64,000 nucleotides of DNA, from the NCBI RefSeq assembly GCF_008085915.1, contig NZ_VSJK01000009.1, positions 1 to 64,000 of the forward strand, in the 5' to 3' direction. Shown piece by piece: positions 23,602-42,125 of this stretch. Below the pieces are notes generated by a model. It did not search any database, had not been told where the DNA came from, and was given only the letters and a program-made list of their open reading frames with translations. Both the position numbers and the translations under genes were made by a program. Source of the DNA: Oceaniovalibus sp. ACAM 378. GTDB lineage: Bacteria; Pseudomonadota; Alphaproteobacteria; Rhodobacterales; Rhodobacteraceae. The number at the start of each line of letters is the position of its first letter. Positions within the stretch are counted from its first letter, which is position 1.

Positions 23602-24846
23602 TCAGGTCGGATCGGGTTTTTCCAGCTCGAAGCAATCGTGCAGCGCCTGCACCGCAAGTTCCATGTACTTCCTGTCGATCAGGACCGAGATCTTGATTTC
23701 AGAGGTCGAGATCACCTTTATGTTGATGTTCTCGTCCCGCAGGCTCTGGAACATCCGGGCGGCGACGCCTGCATGGCTGCGCATGCCGATGCCCACGACA
23801 GATACCTTTGCCACCTCGGTGTCAGCGACGAGTTCGGTATAGTCGATCTTGCCCTCGGCTTTGGCCTGCGACATCGCACGATCGGCGCGTTTCACCTGAT
23901 CCACGGGGCAGGAGAACGTCATGTCGGTGCGCCCTTCCTCGGATATGTTCTGCACGATCATATCCACGTTCACCCCCGCCTCGGCCAGCGGACCGAAAAT
24001 CGCGGCGGCGATGCCGGGTTTGTCGGCGACCGAAATCAGGGTCATTTTTGCCTCGTCACGGGAATAGGCCACACCGGCCACGGCCTTGGATTCCATGATT
24101 TCCTCCTCGTCGCAGACCAGCGTGCCTGCATTTTCATCGTATTCGTCAAAGCTGCTCAGGACACGCAGTTTCACCTTGTACCGCATCGCCAGCTCGACGC
24201 TGCGGGTTTGCAGAACCTTGGCGCCGAGACTGGAAAGCTCCAGCATTTCTTCAAAGCAGATGCGGTCCAGCTTGCGCGCCTTGGCGCTGATCCGGGGGTC
24301 GGTGGTGTATACGCCATCGACGTCGGTATAGATATCACAGCGCACCGCACCGAATGCGGCGGCAAAGGCCACGGCGGTGGTGTCGGACCCGCCCCGGCCA
24401 AGGGTGGCGATGCGGCCTTCGGGGCTGACGCCCTGAAACCCGGCGACCACGGCAACCCTCATCCCGTCAGCGAATTTGGCGTTCAGGTTGGCGGTCGGGA
24501 TGTCCAGAATACGTGCGGCGCTGTGGGCGCCGTTGGTCAGCAGCGGCACCTGCCAGCCCTGCCAACTGCGGGCCGGAATTTCCATTTCCTGCAAGGTCAG
24601 CGCCATCAACCCGGCCGTCACGTTTTCACCGCTGCTGACGACGGCGTCGTATTCACGTGCGTCGTATATGGGCGAGGTTTCGTTGACCCAGCCGACCAGT
24701 TCGTTTGTCTTGCCCGCCATGGCAGATACGATGACGATCACGTTATGGCCATTGGCCACCTCGCGTCCCACACGTTTCGCCACCCGTTTGATCCGGTCGG
24801 GCGTGGCAACAGAGGTGCCGCCGAATTTCATTACCAGAATTGTCAT
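23602..24846 (-). CDS. lysC: Aspartate kinase
   Basis: A 414-residue aspartokinase catalysing the first step of the aspartate pathway to lysine, threonine, methionine and diaminopimelate. KFGGTSVA (7-14), VVSSGENVTAGLM and FQGVSPEGRIATLGRGGSD mark the kinase domain, and two ACT domains occupy about 265-414, where lysine or threonine feedback normally acts. It supplies the same pathway as thrC at 8.9 kb. It shares direction with the downstream phosphodiesterase, SDR and ptsP genes. Confidence 0.97.
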   Translation of the reverse strand: MTILVMKFGGTSVATPDRIKRVAKRVGREVANGHNVIVIVSAMAGKTNELVGWVNETSPIYDAREYDAVVSSGENVTAGLMALTLQEMEIPARSWQGWQVPLLTNGAHSAARILDIPTANLNAKFADGMRVAVVAGFQGVSPEGRIATLGRGGSDTTAVAFAAAFGAVRCDIYTDVDGVYTTDPRISAKARKLDRICFEEMLELSSLGAKVLQTRSVELAMRYKVKLRVLSSFDEYDENAGTLVCDEEEIMESKAVAGVAYSRDEAKMTLISVADKPGIAAAIFGPLAEAGVNVDMIVQNISEEGRTDMTFSCPVDQVKRADRAMSQAKAEGKIDYTELVADTEVAKVSVVGIGMRSHAGVAARMFQSLRDENINIKVISTSEIKISVLIDRKYMELAVQALHDCFELEKPDPT

Positions 24847-24975
24847 CAGTCCCCGGGCCTTCCCGCGCTTTTGGGGCGGTATTTACGGCCTGTGCCGGGG
24901 CGAGGCAAGGGGATGTGGAGCGGCGGGCGTCAGCGTTGCGTTTTCTCGGGGGTGGACCGGAACCGGGGGGGCGGA

Positions 24976-25617
24976 TCAGAAGGCCAGCGCCCGGCCTTCC
25001 CAGTTTTCAAAGCATCCGGTTGTCGCAAGATCAAGCGCCGCGAACCGTTGCAAAAGGCCCTTGGCCGACTGTTCCGGGGTGATGTGGGCGCTGCTGCTGC
25101 CCATGTCGGTCTGAACCCAGCCGGGATGATAGATACCGACAGCAATACCGTCATCCTTCAGATCGGCGGCCAGATTGCGCCCGAGGTTCAGCGCCGCCGC
25201 CTTGGATGCGCGATAGATATACGAACCACCGGGCGCCTTTTCCTGGCTGGCCATCTGGCTGGAGATGATCGCGATCTTGCCCTTTGCGGCGCGCAGGTTG
25301 GGCAGCAGCGACTGGACGGCAAAAAACACTCCGGCGACATTCGTGGCAAAGGTATCCGCCCAGAGCGGTGCGGCATAGCCAGTGTCAAGCGGCTGTCCCT
25401 TGTCGCGGTAGACGCCGGCATTGCACACCAACAAATCCAGCGGCGTCGTGCCGAAGGTGGCGGCCAGCGCGGCGTGAGAGGCCGGATCGGTCACGTCCAG
25501 TGTCAGCAGCCCCGGATCGGAACGCCCTGTGCCCTGAGCCTCGTGGCCGTCCGCCTTGGCGCGGTTCAAAAGCGCGGCACCGATACCACGGCTTGCTCCG
25601 GTGATGAGGATGCGCAT
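24976..25617 (-). CDS. Short-chain dehydrogenase (C-signal-like SDR)
   Basis: A 213-residue short SDR. LITGASRGIG (4-13) binds the cofactor, LVCNAGVY is the NAG strand, IISSQMAS gives the catalytic serine and YIYRASKAAALN the Tyr-x3-Lys pair. The short helix after strand 2 and the overall length resemble the C-signal/carbonyl-reductase-like group rather than FabG. Function unknown. It is 12 bases downstream of the DUF1178 gene, probably in one operon with the Nudix hydrolase further upstream. Confidence 0.85.
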   Translation of the reverse strand: MRILITGASRGIGAALLNRAKADGHEAQGTGRSDPGLLTLDVTDPASHAALAATFGTTPLDLLVCNAGVYRDKGQPLDTGYAAPLWADTFATNVAGVFFAVQSLLPNLRAAKGKIAIISSQMASQEKAPGGSYIYRASKAAALNLGRNLAADLKDDGIAVGIYHPGWVQTDMGSSSAHITPEQSAKGLLQRFAALDLATTGCFENWEGRALAF

Positions 25618-25628
25618 GGACGTTCCTT

Positions 25629-26072
25629 TCAGTTTGATTTTCGGGTCGGGAAAAACGGCAGGGGGACAATGGGAATGCCATCTTCGATCAGCGCGCGCGC
25701 CTGATCCGGGCGTGCCTGACCACGGATTGCGCGTGCGGGCCGGTCGCCCAGATGGATCGCCCGGGCCTCGGCCACGAAACCTGTGCCCACATCGTCGCTG
25801 TTCGCCTCGATCTGGCGGCGCAGTTCGGCAATCGCGGCATGGGAAGGATGGTTGGGCGGGCCGGAAAGGGGGCGGGATGGCACCGCAACAGGCGCCGGGC
25901 CGGTATCCGAAGTGCGCACTGGCGGCGCCATCGGGGCCTTTGTGATCACTGTGTCGTCACATTCGGGACAGGCCAGCGTGCCGGATGCGGCCAGCCGGTC
26001 AAAATCGTCGCCAGAGCGGAACCAGCTGTCAAACCGGTGGTCTTTGGCGCAGCGCAGGGAAAAAAGGATCAA
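25629..26072 (-). CDS. DUF1178 family protein
   Basis: A 147-residue DUF1178 protein; the family is alphaproteobacterial/betaproteobacterial, of unknown function, with a putative zinc ribbon. LRCAKDHRFDSWFRS at the N-terminus, the CPEC pair and TKAPMAPPV match it, and EANSDDVGTGFVAEARAIHLGD is the conserved middle. The start is uncertain: TTG 26072 gives ILFSLRC directly after the initiator, as in homologues, whereas ATG 26114 would add 14 residues that do not look conserved. Neither has a good ribosome-binding site. Confidence 0.82.
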   Translation of the reverse strand: MILFSLRCAKDHRFDSWFRSGDDFDRLAASGTLACPECDDTVITKAPMAPPVRTSDTGPAPVAVPSRPLSGPPNHPSHAAIAELRRQIEANSDDVGTGFVAEARAIHLGDRPARAIRGQARPDQARALIEDGIPIVPLPFFPTRKSN

Positions 26073-26155
26073 TGGGTTGCCCGTCCGGTGCTTGTCCGCG
26101 TCGTGGTTGCCCATCTGGCGGACTTGGAAATAAAGTAAGACACAACCACCTGCGT

Positions 26156-26629
26156 TCAAGCCTTGCCGGACAGGTGTCTGGGATCAAAGTCACGCAGAAG
26201 GCGGCGCAATTCGGGTTCTTTGACGCTGGCGGCTGCCTTTTTAGGGCACATCCATTTGCGCCGCCGCTGGTGCATTTCGGGCCATACCGCGTGCACTTTG
26301 GTCACCCGGATCGCGAACAAGGCGACGACACAGGGCAGATCATCCCCGGGCATTTCCTTGGTATAGGTATAGATTCCCAGACAGGCACCGTTAGACTCGC
26401 CCTCGACACCCGCTTCCTCGAAGGCCTCGACGGCGGCGGCGCCTGCGGGGGTCGCGCCATCCATGGGCCAGCCCTTGGGCGGAATCCAGCGGCCGGTGCC
26501 ACGGGTGGTGACCAGCATCACCTGAACCTCTCCCTTTTTTCTGCGCCAGCACAGGGCACCGAATTGCGTACGCACGTCACGCTTGCCGGTTGGGCCCAAT
26601 CGCAGGGGATGTTCTTTCTCTCTGGACAT
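26156..26629 (-). CDS. Nudix hydrolase
   Basis: A 157-residue Nudix protein. The Nudix box is readable as GATPAGAAAVEAFEEAGVEG (58-77), preceded by WIPPKGWPM; the short WxxPKG opening resembles the diphosphoinositol-polyphosphate/Ap4A-type subgroup. A conserved Arg-Glu in the box appears as Ala-Phe (AVEAFEEAGV), a variation common to this subgroup in Alphaproteobacteria. Start at ATG 26629 or 26647 is undecided, since neither has a clear ribosome-binding site. It is divergent from the deacetylase-like gene and upstream of DUF1178. Confidence 0.82.
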   Translation of the reverse strand: MSREKEHPLRLGPTGKRDVRTQFGALCWRRKKGEVQVMLVTTRGTGRWIPPKGWPMDGATPAGAAAVEAFEEAGVEGESNGACLGIYTYTKEMPGDDLPCVVALFAIRVTKVHAVWPEMHQRRRKWMCPKKAAASVKEPELRRLLRDFDPRHLSGKA

Positions 26630-26773
26630 CAAGGGGCGTGGCACCATTCTGTTGATTGTTTCGGGCGCGGGCCGGTATGTGACAGTCGCGCAAGTCCGCT
26701 CAACTTTAGCATAACGGGGCGGTATGACAATCGGCAAGATAGTGCGCATAGCCTTGATAATCAGGTGTTTGCG

Positions 26774-27907
26774 GTGATCCGACCTTGGCCGCACGCACCG
26801 CGATTCATTGGATCAGAGATCTATCGCGGATCCAGCTATGGAGCGCATCATCCGTTGCGCGTGGCGCGGGTGTCAACGGTGATTGATCTGGCCCGTGCGC
26901 TGGGTTGGTTCGCCGATGGGCAATATGTGATCAGCCCCCGGGCGAAACCTTCTGCCCTGGCCGCATGGCACGACCCCGCCTATCTGTCGGCGCTTATGCG
27001 GGCCGAAAACGGTACATTGGCGAGCGATGAGGCGCGCCGTCATCACTTGGGCACCGCGTCGAACCCGATCTTCCCCGAGATGTTCCGCCGGCCCGCGACA
27101 GCGGCGGGGGGCTCGATCCTTGCGGGGCAGATGCTGCGCCATGGTGGCGTGATCCATTCCCCCGGGGGCGGCACACATCATGGGCTGCCCGACCGGGCCA
27201 ATGGTTTTTGCTATCTCAACGATCCGGCTCTGGCGATCCTCTCGCTCAGGTCAGTGGGGGTGCGGCGGATCGCCTATGTCGATATCGATGCCCACCATTG
27301 TGACGGGGTGGAGCACGGATTTGCCGAAGATCCGGATGTGATGCTGATTTCGGTACACGAGGAACGCCGCTGGCCGTTTACCGGCGCGCTGGAGGATCGC
27401 GGTGCGGGGCAGGTCTGGAACCTGCCGGTGCCGCGTGGGTTCAATGACACCGAAATGTCTGCGGTGCTGGACCGGCTGATCCTGCTGCGTCTGGCCGATT
27501 TTCGCCCCGAGGCTGTGATCCTGCAATGTGGCGCGGATGCCTTGATGGAGGATCCTCTGTCGCGCCTTGCCCTGTCGAACAATGCCCATCTGGAGGTCGT
27601 CGCCGCGCTGCAACAGGTTGCGCCGCGTTATCTGGTGCTGGGCGGCGGTGGCTACAATCCGTGGTCGGTCGGACGGTGCTGGGCGGCGGTCTGGGGGGTG
27701 CTGAACGGGCATAGTCTGCCGGAGCGCCTGCCACCCGTGGCCGAAGCCATCCTGCGTGCGCTGAGCTTTCCCGGGCACCGGATGGGCAAGGCGCCGCCGG
27801 ACCACTGGTTCACCACCCTGCGCGACACTCAGCGCACCGGAAAGGTCAGCGAGACCGTCGACGCGCGGTTGCACAGGCTCGAAGCCCGGGCCGTTGTCTG
27901 GCATTAG
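26774..27907 (+). CDS. Histone deacetylase-like amidohydrolase (AcuC/HDAC family)
   Basis: A 377-residue member of the zinc arginase/deacetylase superfamily; bacterial relatives deacetylate acetyl-CoA synthetase lysines or acetylpolyamines. The active-site His pair is GGTHHG (133-138), zinc ligands Asp172 and His174 lie in VDIDAHHCDGVE, and a third ligand in QCGADALMEDPL; the late GGGGYN contains the expected region before the catalytic tyrosine. The start is GTG 26774, with AGGTG six bases upstream; GTG 26765 is possible. The frame is open from 25985 but overlaps the Nudix gene antisense. Target protein or metabolite unknown. Confidence 0.88.
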   Translation: MIRPWPHAPRFIGSEIYRGSSYGAHHPLRVARVSTVIDLARALGWFADGQYVISPRAKPSALAAWHDPAYLSALMRAENGTLASDEARRHHLGTASNPIFPEMFRRPATAAGGSILAGQMLRHGGVIHSPGGGTHHGLPDRANGFCYLNDPALAILSLRSVGVRRIAYVDIDAHHCDGVEHGFAEDPDVMLISVHEERRWPFTGALEDRGAGQVWNLPVPRGFNDTEMSAVLDRLILLRLADFRPEAVILQCGADALMEDPLSRLALSNNAHLEVVAALQQVAPRYLVLGGGGYNPWSVGRCWAAVWGVLNGHSLPERLPPVAEAILRALSFPGHRMGKAPPDHWFTTLRDTQRTGKVSETVDARLHRLEARAVVWH

Positions 27908-27916
27908 CGGGCCGTG

Positions 27917-31102
<3,186 letters not shown>

Positions 31103-31106
<4 letters not shown>

Positions 31107-31810
31107 CGGTCTGCCTGATACCGGCGCGGGGCGGCTCAAAGCGTATTCCGCGCAAGAATATCCTGAAATTTGCCGGGCGCCCGATGATTGCCTGGTCCAT
31201 CGCAGCGGCGCACGAGGCTGGATGTTTTGAGCGGATCATCGTTTCGACCGACGATGACGAGATCGCCGAGATTGCCACCGCTGAAGGTGCCGAGGTGCCG
31301 TTCCGTCGCCCGGTTGCCCTGTCGGACGATCACGCGACGACGGTTGACGTGATCCGGCATGCCCTTGATTGGCTGGAAGAATCCGCGATGGTGCCCGATA
31401 CCTTGTGCTGTCTCTATGCGACCGCGCCATTTGTGCGGGCACAGGACATTCGCGCCGGGGCCGACATGCTGAAGGATGCGCAGTTCGCGATTCCGGTCAC
31501 CAGTTTCGGATTTCCGATACAGCGTGCCGTGCGGATCGAACAGGGGCGACTTGCCATGTTCGATCCGCAAAACTATGCGACCCGCAGTCAGGATCTGGAG
31601 GAGGCGTATCACGACGCCGGGCAGTTCTATTGGGGTCGGTCAGAAGCCTGGCGCGGTGACATCAACCCGTTCGGGGCGGAAAGCGCGCCGATCCTTCTGC
31701 CGCGCTGGCGGGTGCAGGACATCGACACGCCCGAAGACTGGGTCCGGGCCGAACTGATGTTTCAGGCGCTCAGCTCTGGCGATCGGTCAACTGACGGGTC
31801 AGATCGCTGA
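31103..31810 (+). CDS. pseF: CMP-pseudaminic acid cytidylyltransferase PseF
   Basis: A 235-residue nucleotidyltransferase that activates pseudaminic acid with CTP. The N-terminal LIPARGGSKRIPRKNI (5-20) is the CTP-binding signature of sialic/pseudaminic acid synthetases; YATAPFVRAQDI and DAGQFYWG favour PseF over Kdo synthetase (KdsB). Start is GTG 31103, overlapping the pseC stop. The 3' end overlaps the convergent small ORF by 41 bases. It produces the donor a transferase would use. Confidence 0.94.
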
Positions 31811-31970
31811 CGGCCCGATCCTCTTTATAGATCTCGGCCAGGATCGCTGCCGCCTCATCGGGCGAATGGCGGAAAGCCAGACGCAGAATATCCATCCAGT
31901 TCTTGTTGTTCTTGGTCCGGACAGCTTCGATCTGGTCGATGACTTCGTCGTATTGGCTTTTCTCGGTCAT
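31770..31970 (-). CDS. 66-residue protein of unknown function ending the pseG-pseI operon
   Basis: I do not recognise a named family. The protein is 66 residues, mostly alpha-helical and charged, with a central KNNKNWMDILRLAF (20-33) and DEAAAILAEIYKEDRAVSDL behind it; no signal peptide or membrane segment is seen. From memory, similar short helical proteins accompany nonulosonic-acid clusters in other marine bacteria, but I cannot verify that here. Support for a real gene: its ATG overlaps the pseH stop (ATGA), continuing the coupling of the operon, and it starts at MTEKSQ. Its last 41 bases are antisense to the end of pseF. An adaptor or regulatory role is possible. Confidence 0.72.
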   Translation of the reverse strand: MTEKSQYDEVIDQIEAVRTKNNKNWMDILRLAFRHSPDEAAAILAEIYKEDRAVSDLTRQLTDRQS

Positions 31971-32536
31971 GGGGTTTTGTCCTTTATTGCGGCGGGACGG
32001 ATGGCCTGCCATTCTTGCGCTGTAATGCCCAGAAGATACACGTCATGGAAGACCCCGTCGCGCAGCACATGGTCGCGGCGGCGGCCCTCTTCGATGAACC
32101 CAAAGCCTTTGTGCATGGCGATGACGGCGGTGTTCCAGGCGATGACCTCGCAGTTGAGCTTGTTCAACCCAAGCGATCCGAAGGCCAGGTCAAGCGCCCG
32201 CAGCTCCAGCGCACGACCAAGCCCCTGTCCACGCACCGCGGCGGTCAGATAGAACGCCCAGTCGGCGCGCCGGTGTGTGCCGTCGATCGCGCTGAAGGCG
32301 AGGGCGCCGATCAGCGTGTTATGGTAGCGGACCAGATAGAGACGTCGCGCCGGATCGTCGCGCACTCCAGACAGCCAGCGGCGGTGTTCTTCGGGCCCGA
32401 TTTCACGGTGGGTATACATGTTGGCCCGCACGCCATCTTCGTTGCGGATGTCGCGCAGGGCCAGAGCCTGGTCGTCCGGGGCATCGGACAGCGCGCAAAG
32501 GCTCAGTGTATCGGCGCGTGATTGAAGAATACTCAT
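31967..32536 (-). CDS. pseH: UDP-4-amino-4,6-dideoxy-N-acetyl-beta-L-altrosamine N-acetyltransferase PseH
   Basis: A 189-residue GNAT-fold acetyltransferase, third step of the pathway. The PseH-type sequence IRNEDGVRANMYTHREIGPEEHRRWL (about 34-59) marks the nucleotide-sugar side, DWAFYLTAAVRGQGLGRAL is the acetyl-CoA motif, and NTAVIAMHKGFGFIEEGRRRDHV is the closing part. The start at ATG 32536 overlaps the GT30 gene's stop by four bases (ATGA), and the stop overlaps the next gene the same way. The longer frame to 32671 lies inside the GT30 gene and is not needed. Confidence 0.9.
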   Translation of the reverse strand: MSILQSRADTLSLCALSDAPDDQALALRDIRNEDGVRANMYTHREIGPEEHRRWLSGVRDDPARRLYLVRYHNTLIGALAFSAIDGTHRRADWAFYLTAAVRGQGLGRALELRALDLAFGSLGLNKLNCEVIAWNTAVIAMHKGFGFIEEGRRRDHVLRDGVFHDVYLLGITAQEWQAIRPAAIKDKTP

Positions 32537-33894
32537 GATGCCAAATCCGGAAGATAAGGGCGCAGGGCGGTGACGGTAAGATCTGCCGCCCCCGTATGAT
32601 GGATTGTAAACGCGCGGGCAGCGGCGGTCATTTGCGCAAGCTCTGCCGGTGAGGACAATAGCGCGGCACAACGCGCCGTCAGGGCAGCGGCGGTGGGCAG
32701 GCTTTGGAATGCCCCCGCAGCAGACGCGGCGTCGGCGGCAAAGCGGATGCCAAAGATGCTCGGCCCCATGAGAACCGGCTTGCCCTGAGCCAGCGGCTCC
32801 ATGATGTTATGGCCTCCATGATCCACGAGCGATGCGCCGACCACGACCAGATTCGCCAGGCCGAGGTAAAAGTCCATCTCGCCCAGCGAGTCGCCGATCA
32901 GTATGTCACAGTCGTCCAAGAGAGTGCCGCCAAGATCCTTGTCCAGCGATGTCGACCGTCTGGCGCAGGTCCATCCCTGTGCGATGCAGAGATCGGCAAC
33001 CGCATTGAACCGGCCAGGACTGCGCGGCACCCAGACAATGCGCGCAGCCGAATCCAGTTGGCGCAGGGCGGTGATCAGATCGCGGAATGCGGGTTCCTCG
33101 CCCTCGACAGAGCTGGCGATGGTCAGGACCAGCCGCGAACTTTCGGTCGCCCATTGACTGCAAATTCGTTCGGCAGCACTGCTTTGGATCGCATTGACCG
33201 GTTGGTCGAATTTCAACTCGCCCACCACACGGATCTTCTCGCTATCCACTCCGATGGCGCGAAATCTGTCAGCGAAATCATCGGTTTTGGTGCAGATCAC
33301 ATCAAACAGGCGATACAGCGCAAGGCGGGCGCCCCCGGTTCGTGCGCGGTCGCGCAGGATGGACCGTTCGACCAGATTGCCGTTCACATGAGCCAGCGGA
33401 ATTGACCGGCGCGCGGTTTCAATCAACATCGCGGGCCAGAGTTCAATCTCGACCACCACCAGAACGGCAGGCTGAATGCGCGCCAGAAACAGGCGCACCG
33501 CCCAGAAAAGATCCATCGGCGCATAGTGCGATGTGATGCGTGCATCATCGCCGAACAACCGCTGAGCCGTCTCGAGTCCGGCTGGTGTCGAATGGGTCAG
33601 GGTTACGCGGTGGCCCTCGGACAGCAGCCGGTCGATGACGGGACCGACTGCCTTGGTCTCGCCCGCCGAAGCAGCAAAAATCCAGATAGAACCGGGGGTG
33701 ACTCGTGGCACGAGACCAAATCGGCACGCGAGCCCTTGCCGATATCCCGGCTCGCGACGCGCGCGTATCAACAGATAAAGCAGTGTAATCGGCAAAAGCA
33801 GGTGCGCGGCGATTTGCCAGATGACATAGCCAAGCCAGAACCGAGCACCCTGCTTATCTCGGGGCAAGATCATCGTCCGTGATCGGGTCGCCAC
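32533..33894 (-). CDS. GT30 family glycosyltransferase (WaaA/KdtA-like), candidate pseudaminic acid transferase
   Basis: A 453-residue enzyme of the Kdo-transferase family GT30. It has the N-terminal membrane anchor (about 20-43), an ASAGE segment with the presumed catalytic base Glu79, EIELWP (149-154), SVEGEEPAF (262-270) and GASLVDHGGHNIMEP (353-367). It departs from ordinary WaaA: NGNLVERS (171-178) stands where NARLSxRS is usual, and VPRSPGRF (289-296) has Ser for the common His. It sits inside the pseudaminic acid operon between pseI and pseH, with no lpxK beside it. GT30 enzymes use a CMP-activated ulosonic acid, the same chemistry as CMP-pseudaminic acid. A lipid A Kdo transferase remains the alternative. 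Start 33894 or 33873; both overlap pseI. Confidence 0.85.
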   Translation of the reverse strand: MATRSRTMILPRDKQGARFWLGYVIWQIAAHLLLPITLLYLLIRARREPGYRQGLACRFGLVPRVTPGSIWIFAASAGETKAVGPVIDRLLSEGHRVTLTHSTPAGLETAQRLFGDDARITSHYAPMDLFWAVRLFLARIQPAVLVVVEIELWPAMLIETARRSIPLAHVNGNLVERSILRDRARTGGARLALYRLFDVICTKTDDFADRFRAIGVDSEKIRVVGELKFDQPVNAIQSSAAERICSQWATESSRLVLTIASSVEGEEPAFRDLITALRQLDSAARIVWVPRSPGRFNAVADLCIAQGWTCARRSTSLDKDLGGTLLDDCDILIGDSLGEMDFYLGLANLVVVGASLVDHGGHNIMEPLAQGKPVLMGPSIFGIRFAADAASAAGAFQSLPTAAALTARCAALLSSPAELAQMTAAARAFTIHHTGAADLTVTALRPYLPDLAS

Positions 33895-34903
33895 GGGCCA
33901 CCGTCCGGGACAAATGCGCTGCGATCAGGCGTTCGGGCCGGTTGGCCGGCCAGCCAGCGCCCGGTCGCACAAAGCGATAGTCTTCCGGGGTCAGGGTATG
34001 GCCGGCGGGAAGATCACGCAGGGCAAAGGCAGAGCGTCGACCGGCCGCCTTGGACACCTGTTCGGCCTCGGTCGTGTGTTTCAGACCAGTGCCCCGTGCC
34101 GCGTGAATTTCGGCCACGCCATATGCGATTTCGGCCATCACTTCGGGCGTGGCCGAAAAGCGGTGGTCGGGGCCGGGGCGGGAGGGATCGTTGGTAAAGT
34201 GTTTCTCGATGGCAACCGCCCCCATGGCAGCGGCGGCAAGGGGGCCGCGCGCTCCTATGGTGTGGTCGGAAAACCCGACCATCCGACCAAAGGCATCGCC
34301 CATGGCGGTCATCGCCCGCAGGTTGATCTGATCCAGTGGGGCCGGATAGCTGGAACAACAGTGCAGCAACACGACCGTCCCGGAGCCAGCCCCGTCAAGC
34401 ACGTCGAGCGCATGGGAAACTTCGTCCAGCGTGGCCATGCCTGTGGATAGGATTACCGGTTTTTTCGTGCCCGCGACGGCGCGCAACAGGTCGTCAAACG
34501 TCATTTCGAAACTGGCAATCTTATAGACGGCGCAGCCAAGGTTTTCGATGAAATCCAGATCGCGCGGATCATAGATTGAAGTGAAAGGCAGCAGTCCCCG
34601 TTCCCGGGCGCGATCAAACAGAGGGGCGTGAAACTCCATCGGCATGCCGGCGGACTGATACAATTCGTACAGGTTTTCCTTGCCCCAGACCGGATCGATT
34701 TTCATCGACGGATGATCGGACCGGATCGTCAGACTGTCTGCGTCATAGGTTTGCAACTTGAGACAATCCCATCCCGCATCGGCGGCGATATCGACCAGCG
34801 CCAGCGCCTGATCCAGATCGCGGTCGTGATTTGCGCTGATCTCGGCGATCAACAGCGGCGGGGCCTCGCGGCCGATTGTCTTGCCTTCCAGGGTCAGCGT
34901 CAC
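33854..34903 (-). CDS. pseI: Pseudaminic acid synthase PseI
   Basis: A 349-residue NeuB-family synthase that condenses PEP with the 6-deoxy-AltdiNAc sugar. A TIM barrel covers about 1-275 with PLLIAEISANHDRDLDQA, LKLQTYDADSLT, KIASFEMT and KHFTNDPSRPGPDHRFS; a C-terminal antifreeze-like SAF domain (about 285-349) begins with RSAFALRDLPAGHTLTPED. The text DADSLTI and the N-terminus indicate PseI rather than sialic acid NeuB or legionaminic LegI. Start is GTG 34903, overlapping the pseG stop (GTGA). Confidence 0.95.
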   Translation of the reverse strand: MTLTLEGKTIGREAPPLLIAEISANHDRDLDQALALVDIAADAGWDCLKLQTYDADSLTIRSDHPSMKIDPVWGKENLYELYQSAGMPMEFHAPLFDRARERGLLPFTSIYDPRDLDFIENLGCAVYKIASFEMTFDDLLRAVAGTKKPVILSTGMATLDEVSHALDVLDGAGSGTVVLLHCCSSYPAPLDQINLRAMTAMGDAFGRMVGFSDHTIGARGPLAAAAMGAVAIEKHFTNDPSRPGPDHRFSATPEVMAEIAYGVAEIHAARGTGLKHTTEAEQVSKAAGRRSAFALRDLPAGHTLTPEDYRFVRPGAGWPANRPERLIAAHLSRTVARGDPITDDDLAPR

Positions 34904-35967
34904 GGTGATCTCCGGTCTTGTGTCAGTACCCGGTCAACCACATTTGCCGCGCCTTGGCCATGCACGGCGGCCATGGCGGGCGAATTGAGCGCGAAAAGGG
35001 CGTCACGGATTTTCGGGTCGGACAGGGATGAAAGCCGCTCCAGAAACGGACCGTCGCCGGTGGGGGGATCGGAAAAATACACCTCGGCCAAGCCCGACCG
35101 GTCGAAGTGTTCAAGATAGACGCGATATTCCGGACCCTCAAACAGATAGATGCCCGTGCGTCCCAGCATCGCCGCCTGATATCGCAACAGCCCGATCCGT
35201 CCGACAACCAGCCCACAGCATTCGATCAGCCCGGACAGCCCGGATTTAGGGCCGTGCAGGGTCAAATTTGGGTGATCGTTTGCCATCCGGGTTAACGCAG
35301 CGCGGACATCCGGCGGATAAAGCGGGCCAAGAACCAGATCGATCGCGGCCCCGGTGGGTGCCAAACGTGCGGCGACGCGCTGTGACAATCCGGTCGGATC
35401 CGCACCGCCGCAAAATACAAGAATCCGGTGGGGCAGGGGCGGCGCAATGCGCGCCCGGGCAGCGGCATAGGCGGGGTCCATCACCGCAAAATCGGCACCT
35501 GCCGCCCAGTCGGGCGTGCGCGGAGGCGGGCGAAGGTGCTGCGCGCCCAGATAGGGCGTGACGACACAGGCAGGGGGAATCGCGCTGTCGGGCGTGACAA
35601 AGTGATCGGGCGGCATTGAATCGATGACAGTGACGGGCAGACCGGTCGCGGTCAGGGCTGAAACCTCGCGCGCGGCAGAAAAAGCGTTACCCGACCACAT
35701 GATATCAGTGACGATATGAGTGGTGCCGGATGGCGCAGTCCAATTCGAGCCGTCGGCTACTGTGATGATCGATGCCGCAGGAATGCCCTGCGCCCGCAGC
35801 ACGGAGTGCGATTCAAGCCGGCAGGCATAACTGCAGGTCGCGCCGCGCGCCGCGAACTCTGCCGCCAGATCGCGCATCCGCATCAGATGCCCCATGCCGA
35901 TGGCGCGGGATGCATCCACCCGCAAGACGACATGCGCGGCGATGTTCGGATCTTTTGACCCGGTCAT
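34900..35967 (-). CDS. pseG: UDP-2,4-diacetamido-2,4,6-trideoxy-beta-L-altropyranose hydrolase PseG
   Basis: A 355-residue GT-B-fold nucleotide-sugar hydrolase, step four of the pathway. RVDASRAIGMGHLMRMRDLA holds the family motif with catalytic His27; VTDIMWSG, VFCGGADPTGLS and the late GRIGLLRYQAAMLG followed by FEGPEYR mark the UDP-binding half. Start is ATG 35967, with GGAG eleven bases upstream; GTG 35988 would add seven residues. It opens the minus-strand half of the pse locus, so the operon promoter should lie just above 35968. Confidence 0.93.
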   Translation of the reverse strand: MTGSKDPNIAAHVVLRVDASRAIGMGHLMRMRDLAAEFAARGATCSYACRLESHSVLRAQGIPAASIITVADGSNWTAPSGTTHIVTDIMWSGNAFSAAREVSALTATGLPVTVIDSMPPDHFVTPDSAIPPACVVTPYLGAQHLRPPPRTPDWAAGADFAVMDPAYAAARARIAPPLPHRILVFCGGADPTGLSQRVAARLAPTGAAIDLVLGPLYPPDVRAALTRMANDHPNLTLHGPKSGLSGLIECCGLVVGRIGLLRYQAAMLGRTGIYLFEGPEYRVYLEHFDRSGLAEVYFSDPPTGDGPFLERLSSLSDPKIRDALFALNSPAMAAVHGQGAANVVDRVLTQDRRSP

Positions 35968-36667
35968 TTGATCGTCCGCTCCGGACACGCGCGTCGGGCT
36001 GCGCCAAGATTCGCCGCACTCACGCCGGGTGCACGGAATTGAAAAGCGGCCACCGCATCAGAGGCGCCAGATGTTGCTGCCGGACCTTGGGCACTCCTCT
36101 GCATTTCACCTTGTGATGACGCCTGTCTGGCTGGGGCAGCAGTGAAACAGAGGCAGGGGGCGGTGACCACGCGCCATTCCCGCACCAAAAATTCTCTGAC
36201 GTTGCGCCAGCGCGTGTTGCCAAGGGGCAAGCCCACCGACACCATATCAGCCATCGCATAGGAAACTTCCATTCCGCCCACCAATCGCCCCGGGGCAGGA
36301 TCGATCCCCGCCCGCACACAGCCGTCGATACGCCGGAGTGTTGGTGAGCGCCAGCGCCAGCCCTTTCAAGAGGAGCCATCGCAAACGTCCGGTCGCCTTT
36401 GATTGATCCCGCCTTGGCGAGCGTTCGTTCCGGTTTACGTAAGCCTCGGCGACGGGAACGCCCACATTCAGACAGGCGGTGATCTGCGCTGGCCCAAGTT
36501 GTGAACCCGCGATCCGGGCAACGCCGGACGGACGTGGGCATCGCAATGTCTGAGGGAGATTTCTGCAAGCTTGCCCAGACGGCCCAAAGCATAGGCCGGT
36601 TTGTAGACTGCCCGGTTTTGGAGACGGGTTCGGACGGAACCCGTGCCATATGTTCATGAAAATAAGG
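35968..36667. other. About 700 bases with no supportable gene, between pseG and tRNA-Cys
   Basis: Minus-strand frames are open across parts of this stretch (one even runs through the tRNA), but the translations are rich in Trp, Arg, Cys and Pro with no family signature, and no frame has a good start. The stretch may be leader DNA of the pseG operon plus decayed material next to the tRNA gene. Its base composition is like the surroundings. Confidence 0.45.
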
Positions 36668-36741
36668 TGGAGGCGAGTGGGGGAATCGAACCCCCATACA
36701 CGGATTTGCAATCCGCTGCGTAACCACTCCGCCAACTCGCC
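36668..36741 (-). tRNA. tRNA-Cys (anticodon GCA)
   Basis: A 74-base cloverleaf on the minus strand. The 7-bp acceptor stem GGCGAGT/ACTCGCC is perfect, the anticodon stem-loop GCGGATTGCAAATCCGT reads GCA, the T arm is GGGGGTTCGATTCCCCC, and discriminator T is followed by an encoded CCA (36668-36670). It is the only tRNA gene in the window. Confidence 0.97.
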
Positions 36742-37464
36742 AAAGCCGTGGTTTCTTTAGCTTTGCCAGTGAAAAGGTGCAAGGGGTATCACTCGTGTTG
36801 TCGGGTTCGCGTTCTGTGACCCTTTGGGTTAGCGGCATTCCAGCCGAGTTTGGCACGTCCGGATGATCGGTCGCACCCCGCCTGCATACCTGCGAAATAG
36901 GGTGATTGGGGGGGGGCCGCTAAGTCAGCAACGCCGCCTCAGCTGTACGCCGCTCAGGGAATTATCATCCGCGGCGCTGGGAGGTTTCAGGCTGACATTC
37001 GCAATTCCCTCCCTCAACCCTTTGAAGGAACATTTAAACAGACGTATCAATAGCGTCGTGATCGGAGCCAAACTGACATGGCGGTTCATGGTGCTGATTG
37101 TCCGACCCCGTGCCGGGGGAGGCCATCGCGGTGGAAGGCGCCGGTTTGCCGGAGGCTGTCCAATCTAGGGGATTGGAACGTGTCGGTTCGCGCATTGAGG
37201 GCATGGAACTTTGCGTTTGCATCGGCCAGCGGCACAGCACCCGACCGAAAAACCGTAAATGGCGGCTCAGCTTTAAATGCTGCACCGCTTCGGAGATCAC
37301 GAAATTACCAACCTGTCACAGGTTTTGCGGTGTCCGGTGGTCTGCCGATTAAGTCATGCGTGTATCGCTGCAACGCTGGGCAGGATACGCTGGGCACCCT
37401 GTTGCCCAGCCCGGATGATTGTGTCAAACCGATGAGAACGTCAACGAACGGATGAGTTTAGTCC
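36742..37464. other. About 720 bases with no supportable gene, between tRNA-Cys and pcm
   Basis: No frame has protein-like composition or a usable start. The stretch contains a run of nine G (36908-36916) and an 8-bp inverted repeat GCTGGGCA (37389-37396 with 37403-37410, loop of six) about 55 bases before pcm, without a T-run. The upstream promoter of tRNA-Cys and the promoter of pcm-tolC must lie here, but I cannot place them. Confidence 0.45.
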
Positions 37465-38118
37465 ATGCCCGACTTTGTCACACGCCGCACGATGATGGTG
37501 GATACTCAGGTTCGCACGTCCGACGTGACGAAGTTTCCGATTATCGACGCCATGCTGCGCATAGAGCGTGAACGCTTTGTACCCGCCGGTCTTACCGAGG
37601 CGGCCTATGTTGGTGAAAACATCGAACTTGGGGGCGGGCGCTGCATTCTCGATCCGCGCACTTTGTCCAAGATGCTCGATGCGCTGGATGTGCAGCCTCA
37701 CGAACTCGTGTTGGATATCGGCTGTGCCCAAGGTTATTCTGCGGCGGTCCTGTCGCGTCTCGCCGAGGCGGTTGTCGCGGTTGAGGAAGATGCGGACATG
37801 GCGCGCGACGCAACCGCGATTCTCAGCGAGGTGAACGCTGACAATGTCGCCGTCATCGCCGCGCCATTGGCCGAAGGATCCGCGAAACACGGACCCTATG
37901 ACGTCATTACAATTCAAGGTGCGGTCGAACAACTGCCCGAAGCTCTGATTGCGCAACTGCATGAGGGCGGGCGCATCGCCTGCATTTTCATGGAGGGCGC
38001 TCTGGGGATCTGCCGGATCGGACGAAAGTTCGACGGGCGGATCAGTTGGCGCTTTGGATTCAACGCAACAGCGCCGGTGCTGCCTGGATTTGCAAGTCAG
38101 CCGGCGTTTGTATTCTGA
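37465..38118 (+). CDS. Protein-L-isoaspartate O-methyltransferase family protein
   Basis: A 217-residue SAM-dependent methyltransferase of the PCMT family, which repairs isoaspartyl residues in aged proteins. The SAM-binding motif I is VLDIGCAQGY (82-91); the acidic end of strand 2 is VVAVEED; ITIQGAVEQLPEALIAQLHEGGRI follows the family order. The N-terminal MMVDTQVRTSDVT (Gln and Arg near the start) is the alphaproteobacterial form found directly upstream of tolC, diverged from E. coli Pcm. It is 36 bases upstream of the TolC gene and likely co-transcribed. Confidence 0.9.
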   Translation: MPDFVTRRTMMVDTQVRTSDVTKFPIIDAMLRIERERFVPAGLTEAAYVGENIELGGGRCILDPRTLSKMLDALDVQPHELVLDIGCAQGYSAAVLSRLAEAVVAVEEDADMARDATAILSEVNADNVAVIAAPLAEGSAKHGPYDVITIQGAVEQLPEALIAQLHEGGRIACIFMEGALGICRIGRKFDGRISWRFGFNATAPVLPGFASQPAFVF

Positions 38119-38154
38119 TCCGGTCACCGAAGTGACCACGAAGGAGATTTCCAA

Positions 38155-39534
38155 ATGAAAACGGATCGGATTGTAAGGCGGCTCTGGTCAGTCGTGTTGG
38201 TTGCCGGGATGGGTCTGGCCCCCCTCAGCGTCTCAGCCGAATCCCTGACCGATGCGATGATCGGCGCCTATCGCCACAGCGGACTTCTCGAACAGAACCG
38301 CGCCACCCTGCGCGCGGCGGATGAGGACGTGGCACAGGCCATGGCCACCCTGCGCCCGGTGATCAACTATGTCGGGACATTCACCTATAACAACTCGTTT
38401 TCGTCGGGACGTGACAGTTCTGACACCACACTCGCGCTCACCATGGAGCAGTTGCTGTACGACTTCGGTACATCGCGTCTGGGCATCGACATTGCCAAGG
38501 AATCCGTCCTGGCAACGCGAGAGGCGCTGATCGGCATTGAACAGGATGTTCTGCTGGCCGCGATCACCGCATTTCTGAACGTGCGGCGCGATTCTGCACA
38601 GGTGAACCTGCGCAACAGCAACCTGCGTTTGATCGACCGTGAATTGTCCGCCGCCCGTGACCGGTTCGAAGTGGGCGAGGTGACACGCACCGATGTCGCC
38701 ATCGCCGAATCGCGCCTTGCCGCCGCCCGTTCGGGTCTTGCGCTGGCCAAGGGCAACCTGGAACGTTCGAATGAAGCATACCGCAACGCGGTCGGGCGCT
38801 ATCCCGGCACGCTGAGCCAGCCGCCGCTCCCGCCGCAAAGTGCGAAAACGCTTGACGACGCCCGCGCTGTCGGGCGCCGCACCCATCCGAATATCCGCCG
38901 CTCCATGCGATTGGTCACTGTACAGGAATTGGCGATCGAGCGGGCGATGGCGGGAATGATGCCGCGGATTACCGCCGAAGGCCGGGTCGGCGTGAACGAG
39001 AATTTCGACAATGCGTCCTCGATCGGCATCCGTATCGGCGGCCCGATCTATCAGGGCGGGCGGCTCAGTTCCGGCGTGCGCAAGGCGCAGGCGGGGCGTG
39101 ATGGCGCAAGGGCCGGATTGCACACGACCCAGCATCTGGTCGAACAGAATATCGGCAACGCCTGGGCGCAACTCGCCGTTTCGCGCGCCAGCCTCTCGGC
39201 AAGTGACGAACAGGTGCGTGCCTCGACCGTCGCCTTTCGCGGCGTCCAGGAAGAGGCGACGTTGGGCGCCCGGACCACGCTGGACGTGCTGAACGCCGAG
39301 CAGGAACTGCTGAACGCCCGTGCGGCGCGGATCACTTCGGATACGGATCAGGTGACCTCGGTCTATACCCTGCTGGCCGCCATGGGCCTGCTGACCGTCG
39401 AGCATCTGGGACTTGATATCGTCACCTATGATCCCAACGCCTATTACAACGCTGTGCGTGACGCACCGACCCGTTTTGTCAGCCCGCAGGGCGAGAAACT
39501 GGACCGGATCATGAAATCGCTTGGCAAGAAATGA
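38155..39534 (+). CDS. tolC: TolC family outer-membrane efflux/secretion protein
   Basis: A 459-residue outer-membrane channel of the TolC family, the exit duct for type I secretion and tripartite efflux. A signal peptide ends around residue 28 (SVSA/ES). Two repeated halves are visible: ESLTDAMIGAYRHSGLL starts the first, and ALAKGNLERSNEAYRNAVG, the YQGGRLSSGVRKAQ coil and ARTTLDVLNAEQELLNAR are standard landmarks. A strong AAGGAG site precedes the ATG. No inner-membrane transporter or adaptor gene is adjacent, so it probably serves several systems. Confidence 0.94.
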   Translation: MKTDRIVRRLWSVVLVAGMGLAPLSVSAESLTDAMIGAYRHSGLLEQNRATLRAADEDVAQAMATLRPVINYVGTFTYNNSFSSGRDSSDTTLALTMEQLLYDFGTSRLGIDIAKESVLATREALIGIEQDVLLAAITAFLNVRRDSAQVNLRNSNLRLIDRELSAARDRFEVGEVTRTDVAIAESRLAAARSGLALAKGNLERSNEAYRNAVGRYPGTLSQPPLPPQSAKTLDDARAVGRRTHPNIRRSMRLVTVQELAIERAMAGMMPRITAEGRVGVNENFDNASSIGIRIGGPIYQGGRLSSGVRKAQAGRDGARAGLHTTQHLVEQNIGNAWAQLAVSRASLSASDEQVRASTVAFRGVQEEATLGARTTLDVLNAEQELLNARAARITSDTDQVTSVYTLLAAMGLLTVEHLGLDIVTYDPNAYYNAVRDAPTRFVSPQGEKLDRIMKSLGKK

Positions 39535-39595
39535 TCGGATTCTGCAGATATTCGGTTTCTGCCAAGCCTTCCTAAACCTTTCCGGTGTCTACCAG

Positions 39596-39624
39596 TTGTG
39601 CGCGGACCCGTCTGCGCTTACACT
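39596..39624 (+). promoter_or_regulatory. Putative promoter of the PopZ-like gene
   Basis: TTGTGC (39596-39601) and TACACT (39619-39624) are separated by 17 bases, matching a vegetative promoter, about 28 bases upstream of ATG 39652. Confidence 0.4.
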
Positions 39625-39651
39625 CACTGGTGAGCAGACAGAGGCAGACCA

Positions 39652-40557
39652 ATGTCCGATCCCGTCCAGAACGTTGAGATTGAAGATGTCCTTTCGTCGA
39701 TCCGGCGATTGGTCACAGTGGATGCCGGGCGCCCTGCGCGTAAGACGGCGCGCGATATCGCAACCGACTCCCTTGCAACCGCGCCTGCGATCAGGCGCGA
39801 CGACAAGCTGGTCCTGACGGCGGATCTGCGAATTCCCGACGCCGAGGTTGACCCTGCACCGTCTCAGATTGCTTCCGAACCTGCGCAAACCCATGCGACA
39901 GAAGATTTTAATACCGACATTGCCGGGGATACGACGGGGCGTCTGACGCTGACCCTTGAGCAGCGGATCGCCGAACTTGAGGCCGCCGTGACAGCCCAAG
40001 CCGCCGACTATGAGCCCGACGGGAGCGAGGACACGTCGCAGCACCGCCCCTCGGCGGTTCCGTTGCGGCGCATCATTGTTCAGGAAATTGAGCGGTCCAC
40101 AGCTTCGTTGGATCCGCATTCCGATGGCGCGGTCGATCTTGAAACCCTTGTCGCCCACAGTATGCAGGCAGGCGTCGAAGAACACGCCCTGCCGCTGGTT
40201 GAACCCCGGTCACACCAGACTGACCCGGTGCCACCAACGGCATCTGACGCCGCGCTGGACGTAGCAGACGCGGGAAACTCCGGGTCGACCCTGCCGGAAC
40301 ACCAGTTGTTTATTCACAATCCCACACGCGACCATGGCCCGACCGAGGCCGACGGGTCGGATAGGGCTGCAGAGTCAGATGGGATCGATCTGGCCTCTGA
40401 CGAAGCTTTGCTCGATGAAGAGGCGCTGCGCGACATGGTGGCGGAAATCGTGCGCGAAGAACTGCAAGGCGCACTGGGCGAGCGGATCACGCGCAATGTG
40501 CGCAAACTGGTCCGGCGTGAAATCATGCGTGCAATCTCGATTCGCGATTTCGAATAA
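39652..40557 (+). CDS. Acidic PopZ/DUF2497-like protein
   Basis: A 301-residue acidic protein with three parts: a short N-terminal helix motif VEIEDVLSSIRRLV (8-21) like the MEEILASIRRII start of PopZ/DUF2497 proteins, a long low-complexity middle rich in Asp, Glu, Ala, Thr and Pro, and a C-terminal helix bundle DEEALRDMVAEIVREELQ through TRNVRKLVRREIMRAI (about 262-295). PopZ organises the cell pole and anchors the chromosome in Caulobacter by this same short-helix/acidic-linker/helical-end design. Homology to PopZ itself is an inference; relatives of this gene lie between tolC and valS in Rhodobacterales. AGAGG precedes the ATG. Confidence 0.6.
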   Translation: MSDPVQNVEIEDVLSSIRRLVTVDAGRPARKTARDIATDSLATAPAIRRDDKLVLTADLRIPDAEVDPAPSQIASEPAQTHATEDFNTDIAGDTTGRLTLTLEQRIAELEAAVTAQAADYEPDGSEDTSQHRPSAVPLRRIIVQEIERSTASLDPHSDGAVDLETLVAHSMQAGVEEHALPLVEPRSHQTDPVPPTASDAALDVADAGNSGSTLPEHQLFIHNPTRDHGPTEADGSDRAAESDGIDLASDEALLDEEALRDMVAEIVREELQGALGERITRNVRKLVRREIMRAISIRDFE

Positions 40558-40956
40558 CGGCTTTGCCGGGCCGGGGCGGCCTTGTTCAACGACTTTTGCG
40601 TTGACCGCCGGATCTCTCGAGGCCTGATCAAGAACGTCTAAACGCGCTATCCTGCTCAGATTAAACGCAATATCCGGCTCAGTCGCAGAACCGCGATCCG
40701 GGACGATTTGCCCGGGCGGTTGTGGATGTGCATCACGTCTTCGGCGGGCAACGTCAGGCATCTGTGCACGTCTCCCAGAGAAGCCCAGCCGGTGCGCGTC
40801 AAATCACCCTCACAGTTGCATATCCGACATGAACGGGGCGAGCGGTGCCCGAACTGGCATGTCTGCGCAAAAGCCGTGAGGCAGCACAGAGCATATCAGA
40901 CGAACGGGCCGCCAGTTTTTCAAATCGCGGCCACAGCGGCACCCGACAGCGGCAAC
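40558..40956. other. About 400 bases without a gene after the PopZ-like gene
   Basis: Nothing protein-like is seen in any frame. The right end carries the terminator of the minus-strand gene at 41008. In relatives valS follows at this place; here it does not. Confidence 0.45.
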
Positions 40957-40985
40957 GAAAAAGCGCCGGCAAGATACACCGGCGC
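40957..40985 (-). terminator. Rho-independent terminator of the DUF6280-like gene
   Basis: Read on the minus strand, stem GCGCCGG (40979-40985 with 40963-40969), a nine-base loop and a run of five T (40958-40962) lie 22 bases beyond the stop codon at 41008. Confidence 0.75.
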
Positions 40986-41007
40986 CCGTTCGATCTGAAA
41001 GGTTTTT

Positions 41008-41325
41008 TCAGGCGGCTTCTGCTTGGGCGGCGTTGCGACGCTCGCTTTCTTCGCGTGACAGGGCCACCGACGTGCGGATCCCCTTGGACACGAAATCCAT
41101 CAGGCCGGTCACAACCCGTTCGTTGGGGTCAATCCCGGCGCAGGACAGCACCTCGCGGCCATCGCGCGACCGTGCCCACCGGGCGATCTGCTCGGGGCCG
41201 TTACCATATTTTTTGTCATCGGCGATTGCATCATCCAGCGCAGCCAGAACAACAGCGGCAAAGAGTTTGCGCGCCCGGTTGCCCTGCTCGTGATTGAAAG
41301 CAGTTCCGTCAACGAAATCTGACAT
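41008..41325 (-). CDS. Small conserved Rhodobacterales protein (DUF6280-like)
   Basis: A 105-residue soluble protein with no enzyme motif. The sequence [20 protein letters not shown] through [20 protein letters not shown] looks strongly conserved in style and matches, from memory, a short Rhodobacterales-restricted family annotated DUF6280; I hold that name with moderate confidence. It has its own terminator and is divergent from efp. Two 14-base direct repeats lie immediately upstream (41340-41373). Function unknown; predicted all-helical. Confidence 0.72.
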
Positions 41326-41339
41326 CTCGTCGTATCCTT

Positions 41340-41373
41340 ATTCTTGCACTTGCATATTCATTCTTGCACTTGC
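41340..41373. repeat. Two 14-base direct repeats, 20-base period, in the DUF6280-like/efp divergent region
   Basis: ATTCTTGCACTTGC occurs at 41340-41353 and again at 41360-41373. The period of 20 bases is near two helical turns. They lie 15 bases before the start codon of the minus-strand gene, so they could bind a regulator or be part of its leader RNA. Confidence 0.7.
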
Positions 41374-41490
41374 GTTTTCGGCATGACGTCCCTTATGGAC
41401 GCGATCGAACTGATTCTGTGACACTCATTTCGCATATCGCCTATGCGCCTTGCGCATGGCTCGCGGGTGACCCAACCCTAATTGTGCGGC

Positions 41491-41519
41491 TTGCCAGTCC
41501 TGCCTATGCAAGATATAGG
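41491..41519 (+). promoter_or_regulatory. Putative vegetative promoter of efp
   Basis: TTGCCA (41491-41496) and TATAGG (41514-41519) are separated by exactly 17 bases. Transcription would begin near 41526, leaving a leader of about 36 bases before ATG 41562. Confidence 0.5.
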
Positions 41520-41561
41520 GTTTGCCAAATTCCGATCAACCTTTTGACATGGTTTTGCCAC

Positions 41562-42125
41562 ATGCCTAAAATTAACGGTAACGAAATTCGTCCGGGCAAT
41601 GTGCTCGAACACAACGGTGGTCTTTGGGCCGCTGTAAAGGTGGATCATGTAAAGCCGGGCAAGGGCGGAGCCTTTGCCCAGGTCGAAATGCGTAACCTTC
41701 GTAATGGCTCAAAGCTTAACGAACGGTTTCGTTCCGCTGACAAGGTCGAAAAAGTCCGTCTGGATCAGAAAGATCAACAGTTTCTTTACGAATCCGACGG
41801 TATGTTGGTGTTCATGGACACTGAAACCTATGAACAAATCGAACTCCCGACCGAACTGTTGGGCGAACGTCGCCCGTTTCTTCAGGACGGTATGACGATC
41901 CACATTGAATACTACGACAGCGAGGCGCTGAGCGCGACGCTGCCGCAAAAAGTAACCTGCAGAATTGCCGAGACCGAGCCTGTGGTCAAAGGCCAGACGG
42001 CCGCTAACAGTTTCAAACCTGCGATTCTGGACAATGGAATCAAGGTGATGGTGCCGCCTTTCGTCGGGCAGGACGTAGATATCATCGTTAACACCGAGAC
42101 GATGGAATACGCCGAACGCGCCTGA
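41562..42125 (+). CDS. efp: Translation elongation factor P
   Basis: A 187-residue three-domain EF-P that rescues ribosomes stalled at polyproline. The modification loop [12 protein letters not shown] (30-41) carries Lys34, the residue beta-lysylated by EpmA in many bacteria. Domain II-III signatures include [13 protein letters not shown] and the ending [24 protein letters not shown]. The frame is open from 41364, but ATG 41562 is the family start. Several genes here (DegP, HflC tail, the lipoprotein) have Pro-rich stretches that could depend on it; epmA is not in the window. Confidence 0.97.

Follow-up and report, generated by a model that had tools for sequence, protein, structure and literature searches.

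A GT30 clade linked to nonulosonic acid genes in Rhodobacterales includes a candidate pseudaminic acid transferase

There are few transferases for pseudaminic acid and the related nine-carbon acids, and recognising them is difficult. One flagellin system in which the sugar is pseudaminic acid is that of FlmG. According to the papers cited, FlmG of Caulobacter is an alphaproteobacterial flagellin glycosyltransferase (PMC7591256), a Maf protein of Clostridium also accepts Kdo (PMC11339370), and KpsS1 (GT118) of Acinetobacter baumannii is a relative of Kdo transferases that uses a pseudaminic acid donor (PMC12887879). For WaaA of Aquifex, the passage cited names E31 as the base and R212 as a residue that binds the CMP phosphate, and gives the contacts made with the phosphate and ribose of CMP (PMC6286764). 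A review passage reports Neu5Ac in the LPS of Rhodobacter capsulatus (PMC9631793). Among the titles and abstract openings listed from the open-licence literature, we found none that ties GT30 or WaaA to the transfer of pseudaminic or other nonulosonic acids.

The DNA analysed here (the window) is a stretch of 64,000 nucleotides from Oceaniovalibus sp. ACAM 378, in which a GT30 gene lies among genes for CMP-pseudaminic acid. We propose that this protein belongs to a branch of GT30 that probably takes nonulosonic acids from their CMP form, in this case pseudaminic acid, and places them on membrane-bound lipid A or core; the donor we infer from the neighbouring genes.

The pse cluster and its GT30 gene

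The first-pass annotation had placed a 453-residue GT30 protein between pseI and pseH, overlapping both, and this was confirmed by the coordinates of the open reading frames and by a match to PF04413 (Glycos_transf_N) of 151 bits against a cut-off of 23.9. The genes of the cluster are the following.

28966..29964, plus strand: pseB, dehydratase; TIGR03589, 539.8 bits (cut-off 407.75)
29961..31106, plus strand: pseC, aminotransferase; TIGR03588, 524.3 bits (cut-off 423.5)
31103..31810, plus strand: pseF, CMP-pseudaminic acid synthetase; TIGR03584, 318.8 bits (cut-off 205.7)
31967..32536, minus strand: pseH, N-acetyltransferase, start ATG 32536; TIGR03585, 123.6 bits (cut-off 93.1)
32533..33894, minus strand: GT30 protein, candidate pseudaminic acid transferase; 453 aa, GTG start
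33854..34903, minus strand: pseI-like pseudaminic acid synthase of the NeuB family; PF03102, 259 bits; TIGR03586, 326.6 bits, below the cut-off of 340.25
34900..35988, minus strand: pseG-like UDP-sugar hydrolase, divergent; TIGR03590, 78.7 bits, below the cut-off of 153.55; no Pfam match

Four of the six pse genes (pseB, pseC, pseF and pseH) pass their NCBIfam cut-offs, and pseI and pseG fall below them. For pseB, the start chosen is the ATG at the beginning of the TIGR03589 match. The pseH frame extends upstream as far as TTG 32671, and its ATG at 32536 overlaps the stop codon of the GT30 gene. The GT30 frame has an alternative in-frame start, ATG at 33873, and shares 41 bases (from GTG 33894) or 20 bases (from ATG 33873) with the 3' end of pseI. 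The junction of GT30 and pseH is an ATGA overlap and that of pseG and pseI a GTGA overlap. The cluster had been described as a single pse operon, but its genes form two convergent halves, pseB-pseC-pseF on the plus strand and the coupled genes pseG-pseI-GT30-pseH on the minus strand. The same order (pseI, GT30, pseH, with pseF, pseC and pseB opposed) was found in Oceaniglobus indicus, the nearest named relative among the matches listed, whose GT30 is 71% identical.

Three pse clusters of the same family (L187, L188 and L189) hold no GT30 gene, and a scan of six ORFs near them found no Pfam glycosyltransferase.

The GT30 clade, its distribution and its loci

The window protein served as query against 149 genomes from its family, with each genus represented once. 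The boundary of the clade was set at a gap in the scores, 19 genomes reaching at least 202.7 bits and the others at most 137.6. The clade was present in 19/149 genomes, some GT30 in 138/149 and NeuB (PF03102) in 35/149. All 19 genomes with the clade had a NeuB-family synthase, against 16 of the 130 without it (Fisher p 8e-15, the kinship of the genera being ignored). By coordinates, NeuB lay within 10 kb of the clade gene in 15 of the 19; in two (G022 and G056) the genes were on different, short contigs, and in two more (G003 and G045) they were 0.7-1.1 Mb apart. The association with pse genes expected from the first-pass annotation was found in a broader form, with nonulosonic acid genes in 19/19 genomes, but it does not hold for pse genes as such: PseC was above its cut-off in 11/149 genomes, and only two of these (G000 and G079) carried the clade. 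The nine others count against nonulosonic acid transfer by the clade, and indicate that pse loci often manage without a clade GT30.

The main rival explanation is that the clade provides an additional Kdo transferase, found in LPS core loci that also hold nonulosonic acid genes, and that another enzyme transfers the nonulosonic acid. In its favour are kdsA, present in 24/24 genomes searched, and kds genes in two neu loci (kdsD, kdsA and kdsB in L113, kdsA and kdsD in L078). It fits poorly with the survey, in which some GT30 was present in 138/149 family genomes but the clade was absent from all 114 that lack NeuB, and we consider it unlikely.

In a class-wide search, 3 of 289 genomes matched at 1e-50, all from the family of the window, and a search of a plasmid collection for signs of plasmid spread gave no match at 1e-40. 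The clade set comprised 96 distinct members, that is 101 loci (80 named loci, the best 80 of 275, with 18 from the family survey, 2 from the class-wide search and the window) minus 5 duplicates. The 80 named loci were retrieved with patterns derived from the clade and therefore served for linkage only, frequencies resting on the 149-genome survey; three of the named records are labelled only as Alphaproteobacteria, and the others bear Rhodobacterales names.

A FastTree phylogeny of 213 rows recovered the clade of 96 with support 1.0, a pse branch of 14 with 0.998 and a neu branch of 82 with 0.984; in an IQ-TREE phylogeny of 87 rows (36 from the clade), the SH-aLRT values were 100, 99 and 96. 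X-type GT30 rows other than that of contig C99 were left out of the trees. The clade groups with WaaA from other classes of the phylum. Constraining it with the Rhodobacterales K rows was rejected (AU p 0.024, with long branches in play), which disfavours an origin from the resident Rhodobacterales waaA, so the recruitment from a resident waaA suggested earlier probably did not take place. The idea that pse-linked copies form a GT30 clade of their own was right in that they fall outside housekeeping WaaA, but the clade is far wider and sits mostly in sialic-type loci.

Locus classes were defined by marker searches with identity thresholds of our own choosing. Among the 96 distinct members, which include the best 80 of 275 named loci, the locus held neuB, neuC or neuA in 67 and was a pse locus in 13 (neu or pse, 80/96); another cytidylyltransferase adjoined the gene in 7, and 9 had none of these. 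Twelve of the 14 members that share the PRS stretch of the window GT30 are in a pse locus, and for a thirteenth (L067) a pse cluster was found in another part of the genome. Locus L083 holds a member of the neu branch inside a pse cluster that comprises pseB, pseC, pseF, pseG, pseH and pseI. For its sister L072, another locus of the genome (L230) carries pseC, pseF, pseH and pseI. That one clade pairs with two pathways, and that a neu-branch member stands with pse where the genome has pse, is best explained if the donor of each enzyme is the CMP-nonulosonic acid that its partner genes produce; that the clade goes with pse, not neu, in L083 and L072 speaks against the Kdo explanation.

The loci with no marker and those with another cytidylyltransferase were followed up by genome searches. 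NeuB was found elsewhere in the genome for seven of the former (L067, L072, L076, L086, L112, L125 and L055, the last in G056) and five of the latter (L044, L054, L128, L130 and L134). The searches found no NeuB for L060 and L103, or for L084 and L107, and these four count against nonulosonic acid transfer. In the last two, both from Aliiroseovarius (L084, 10001-12983, and L107), the clade GT30 is followed by an ORF without a Pfam match, which we read as HAD-like, and then by a PF02348 cytidylyltransferase.

A further possibility is that the window GT30 adds a third CMP-activated ulosonic acid and that pseudaminic acid goes elsewhere. The seven members that adjoin other cytidylyltransferases agree with it, as does a run of DegT aminotransferase, cytidylyltransferase and GMC oxidoreductase genes in L108, but PseF was the sole cytidylyltransferase recognised among the ORFs at 24000-42000 of the window (ten of them Pfam-scanned), and we regard this possibility as very improbable. 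The run as scanned in L108 (6478-11275) includes a clade GT30 that keeps PRH. A similar arrangement was seen in L054 (8901-13529), where the aminotransferase and cytidylyltransferase were scanned, and in L044 and L128, where their matches are weak. These genes may encode a new pathway for an amino-ulosonic acid, 8-amino-Kdo being one candidate.

The usual order in neu loci is neuB ... neuC-K'-GT30, while neuA, an SDR gene and a Gfo-type gene lie on the other strand. Here K' denotes a further GT30, found in 61/67 neu loci (drawn from the 96 members that include the best 80 of 275 named loci), for example in L095 (8680-9939); its motifs are VGLGE and EQxxWP. Some neu loci hold other transferases, such as a GT25 in L120, which counts against transfer by the clade GT30. 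K' is absent from the Amylibacter loci L039/L070 and L087, and L070 is a compact run, neuB-neuC-GT30-gfo-neuA-sdr, with no other transferase among its ORFs. Its neuC passes the NCBIfam cut-off, but NeuB (351.3 against 399.65) and the cytidylyltransferase (108.1 against 205.7) fall below theirs, so the gene labels do not fix the exact acid.

Conserved and altered residues, and the other GT30 genes

The window GT30 has the catalytic and CMP-binding residues of its family: G78, E79, P290, R291, N363 and E366. In the alignment with Aquifex WaaA, Glu79 corresponds to E31, Glu149 to E98, Arg291 to R212, Asn363 to N273 and Glu366 to E276. Glu79 is kept in all 95 clade rows that reach this position, Glu149, Arg291 and Glu366 in 96/96 members and Asn363 in 95/96 (the best 80 of 275 named loci included). 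The retention of the WaaA catalytic residues is also what a second Kdo transferase would show. The predicted model (pLDDT 94.3) has WaaA (2xci) as its best solved match, with a VIA Z of 34.3 and an rmsd of 3.8 over 350 residues, and the long N-terminal helix of WaaA is retained, as is its acceptor Trp (Trp153 in the window GT30).

The motifs quoted in the first-pass annotation were all found in the translation, and its reading of two altered stretches, NGN where WaaA has NAR and PRS where WaaA has PRH, agrees with the 31/31 outgroup WaaA that have Arg at the second Asn of NGN (position 173) and His at the Ser of PRS (position 292, directly after Arg291). Family K copies (n=13) have His at 292 in 13/13 and Arg at 173 in 12/13. 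Clade members have His at 292 in 5/96 (changed in 91/96) and Arg at 173 in 0/96, again including the best 80 of 275 named loci. This complete loss of the Arg of NAR argues against the Kdo explanation, though Aquifex WaaA itself lacks that Arg. The His of PRH is lost in 64 of 67 K' copies as well (3/67 K' rows keep PRH), which we count against nonulosonic acid transfer; since K' has mostly lost it too, the change is not diagnostic of the donor, and as the sole mark of nonulosonic acid use it is ruled out.

Also on the opposing side are five clade members that retain PRH (L044, L054, L108, L109 and L128). No NeuB match was found within their fetched loci; L108 and L109 have neuC in the locus, and for L044, L054, L108 and L128 the genome contains NeuB outside it. 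Lys162 of Aquifex is Lys228 in the window GT30, and at this position the clade has Lys in 15/96 and Arg in 81/96, which counts against our proposal too. The putative acceptor-phosphate residue Arg56 of Aquifex is Ala in the window GT30, and E. coli also has a residue other than Arg. The best NCBIfam WaaA equivalog scores 310.9 bits on the window GT30, against a cut-off of 524; this cut-off cannot separate it from the genome's own kds-linked GT30, because that copy falls short as well (313 bits, cut-off 617).

That genome holds three GT30 genes by PF04413 search, the window copy included, which rules out the window copy as its only waaA and bears out the expectation of a second waaA elsewhere. 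One of the two others, on contig C9, comes after kdsD-kdsA-kdsB (kdsA labelled by TIGR01362, kdsB confirmed, kdsD of KpsF/GutQ type). The other, on contig C99, is placed between DUF4170 and lpxK and has lost the GE, ExExWP and PRH motifs. PRH is found in none of the three, which we also count against our proposal; the kds-linked copy has PRQ and the window copy PRS. The working Kdo transferase is most simply the kds-linked GT30, though it has PRQ and not PRH. We count this separate Kdo route, kdsD-kdsA-kdsB-GT30, in favour of a nonulosonic acid donor for the window copy.

Among the 19 clade-carrying genomes, 18 yielded a GT30 copy adjoining lpxK, that of the window being one of them; none was found in G014. 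The GE, ExExWP and PRH motifs are in place in 0/18 of them. The Glu at the base position is present in 3/18, the Glu98 counterpart in 1/18, the Arg212 counterpart in 5/18, and all three together in 0/18. The gene is retained despite this loss of motifs, for example in L005 (8884-10131, minus strand) and in L190-L207, and to judge from its sequence is probably a WaaA pseudoenzyme.

Two GT30 matches were found in the Amylibacter genome G120, the clade member and an lpxK-linked copy that is without counterparts of Arg212 and Glu98 and keeps the Glu at the base position. The full motif set is thus found in the clade member alone, which in this genome may also be needed for Kdo transfer; this speaks for the Kdo explanation. 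An Amylibacter without Kdo is ruled out by the kdsA present in G120.

Donor, acceptor and known systems

In the mechanism that we consider probable, the window GT30 would be a GT-B glycosyltransferase of the WaaA fold with a changed donor. The six flanking pse enzymes would, by their families, make CMP-pseudaminic acid; conserved Arg291, Asn363 and Glu366 would hold the CMP, and Glu79, by homology to Aquifex WaaA, would act as the base. Pseudaminic acid would then pass to an acceptor at the cytoplasmic membrane; retention of the long N-terminal helix and of Trp153 makes lipid A-Kdo or the inner core the likeliest. The chemistry of the linkage we infer along with donor and acceptor. Other clade members would pair with the pathway of their own genome, one branch with that for pseudaminic acid and most of the other branch with one of the neuB/neuC/neuA type.

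Flagellin, lipid A and a surface glycan had all been named as acceptors, and among these lipid A or core is the likelier and flagellin the poorer candidate. Transfer to flagellin, with the window GT30 replacing Maf or FlmG, would suit a genome that has one flagellin match and no Maf match: PF01973, which we take to be the Maf domain, had no match in the window GT30 (Pfam scan) or in the genome, the controls recovered being all archaeal. A search of the flagellin contig over its first 16 kb found no pse or GT30 match, the WaaA-like N-terminal helix and Trp are kept, and two orthologous loci hold Kdo genes, all of which make flagellin a very doubtful acceptor. Taken as a whole, the first-pass annotation is partly supported, and the genomic tests that could have refuted it did not.

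A wider reading, for which we would give slightly less than even chances, is that the Rhodobacterales clade consists of general CMP-ulosonate transferases onto lipid A or core with at least three classes of donor (pseudaminic acid, neuB/neuC sialic-type acids, and an acid made by the DegT, GMC and cytidylyltransferase genes, perhaps an amino-Kdo), and that in Amylibacter no GT30 other than the clade member has the full motif set. If nonulosonic acid transfer is correct, this branch of GT30 would supply the transferase needed for sialic acid in LPS of the Rhodobacter type (R. capsulatus lies outside the species searched), and the naming of every GT30 gene as a Kdo transferase would come into question. 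The clade is also a clean sequence set for finding the determinants of ulosonic acid donor choice.

Compared with the known systems, the window GT30 is like the lipid IVA Kdo transferase WaaA/KdtA (GT30), which begins the LPS core, in its predicted fold (2xci), in its base and CMP phosphate and ribose residues and in its N-terminal helix, and unlike it in falling in a separate clade, in its changed NAR and PRH stretches and in its adjoining nonulosonic acid genes. Maf flagellin transferases share with our proposal the use of nonulosonic acid donors, and FlmG differs from it in acting on flagellin. KpsS1 resembles the proposed enzyme as a Kdo-transferase relative with a pseudaminic acid donor, but is by its description set apart as a retaining enzyme related to KpsC and WbbB.
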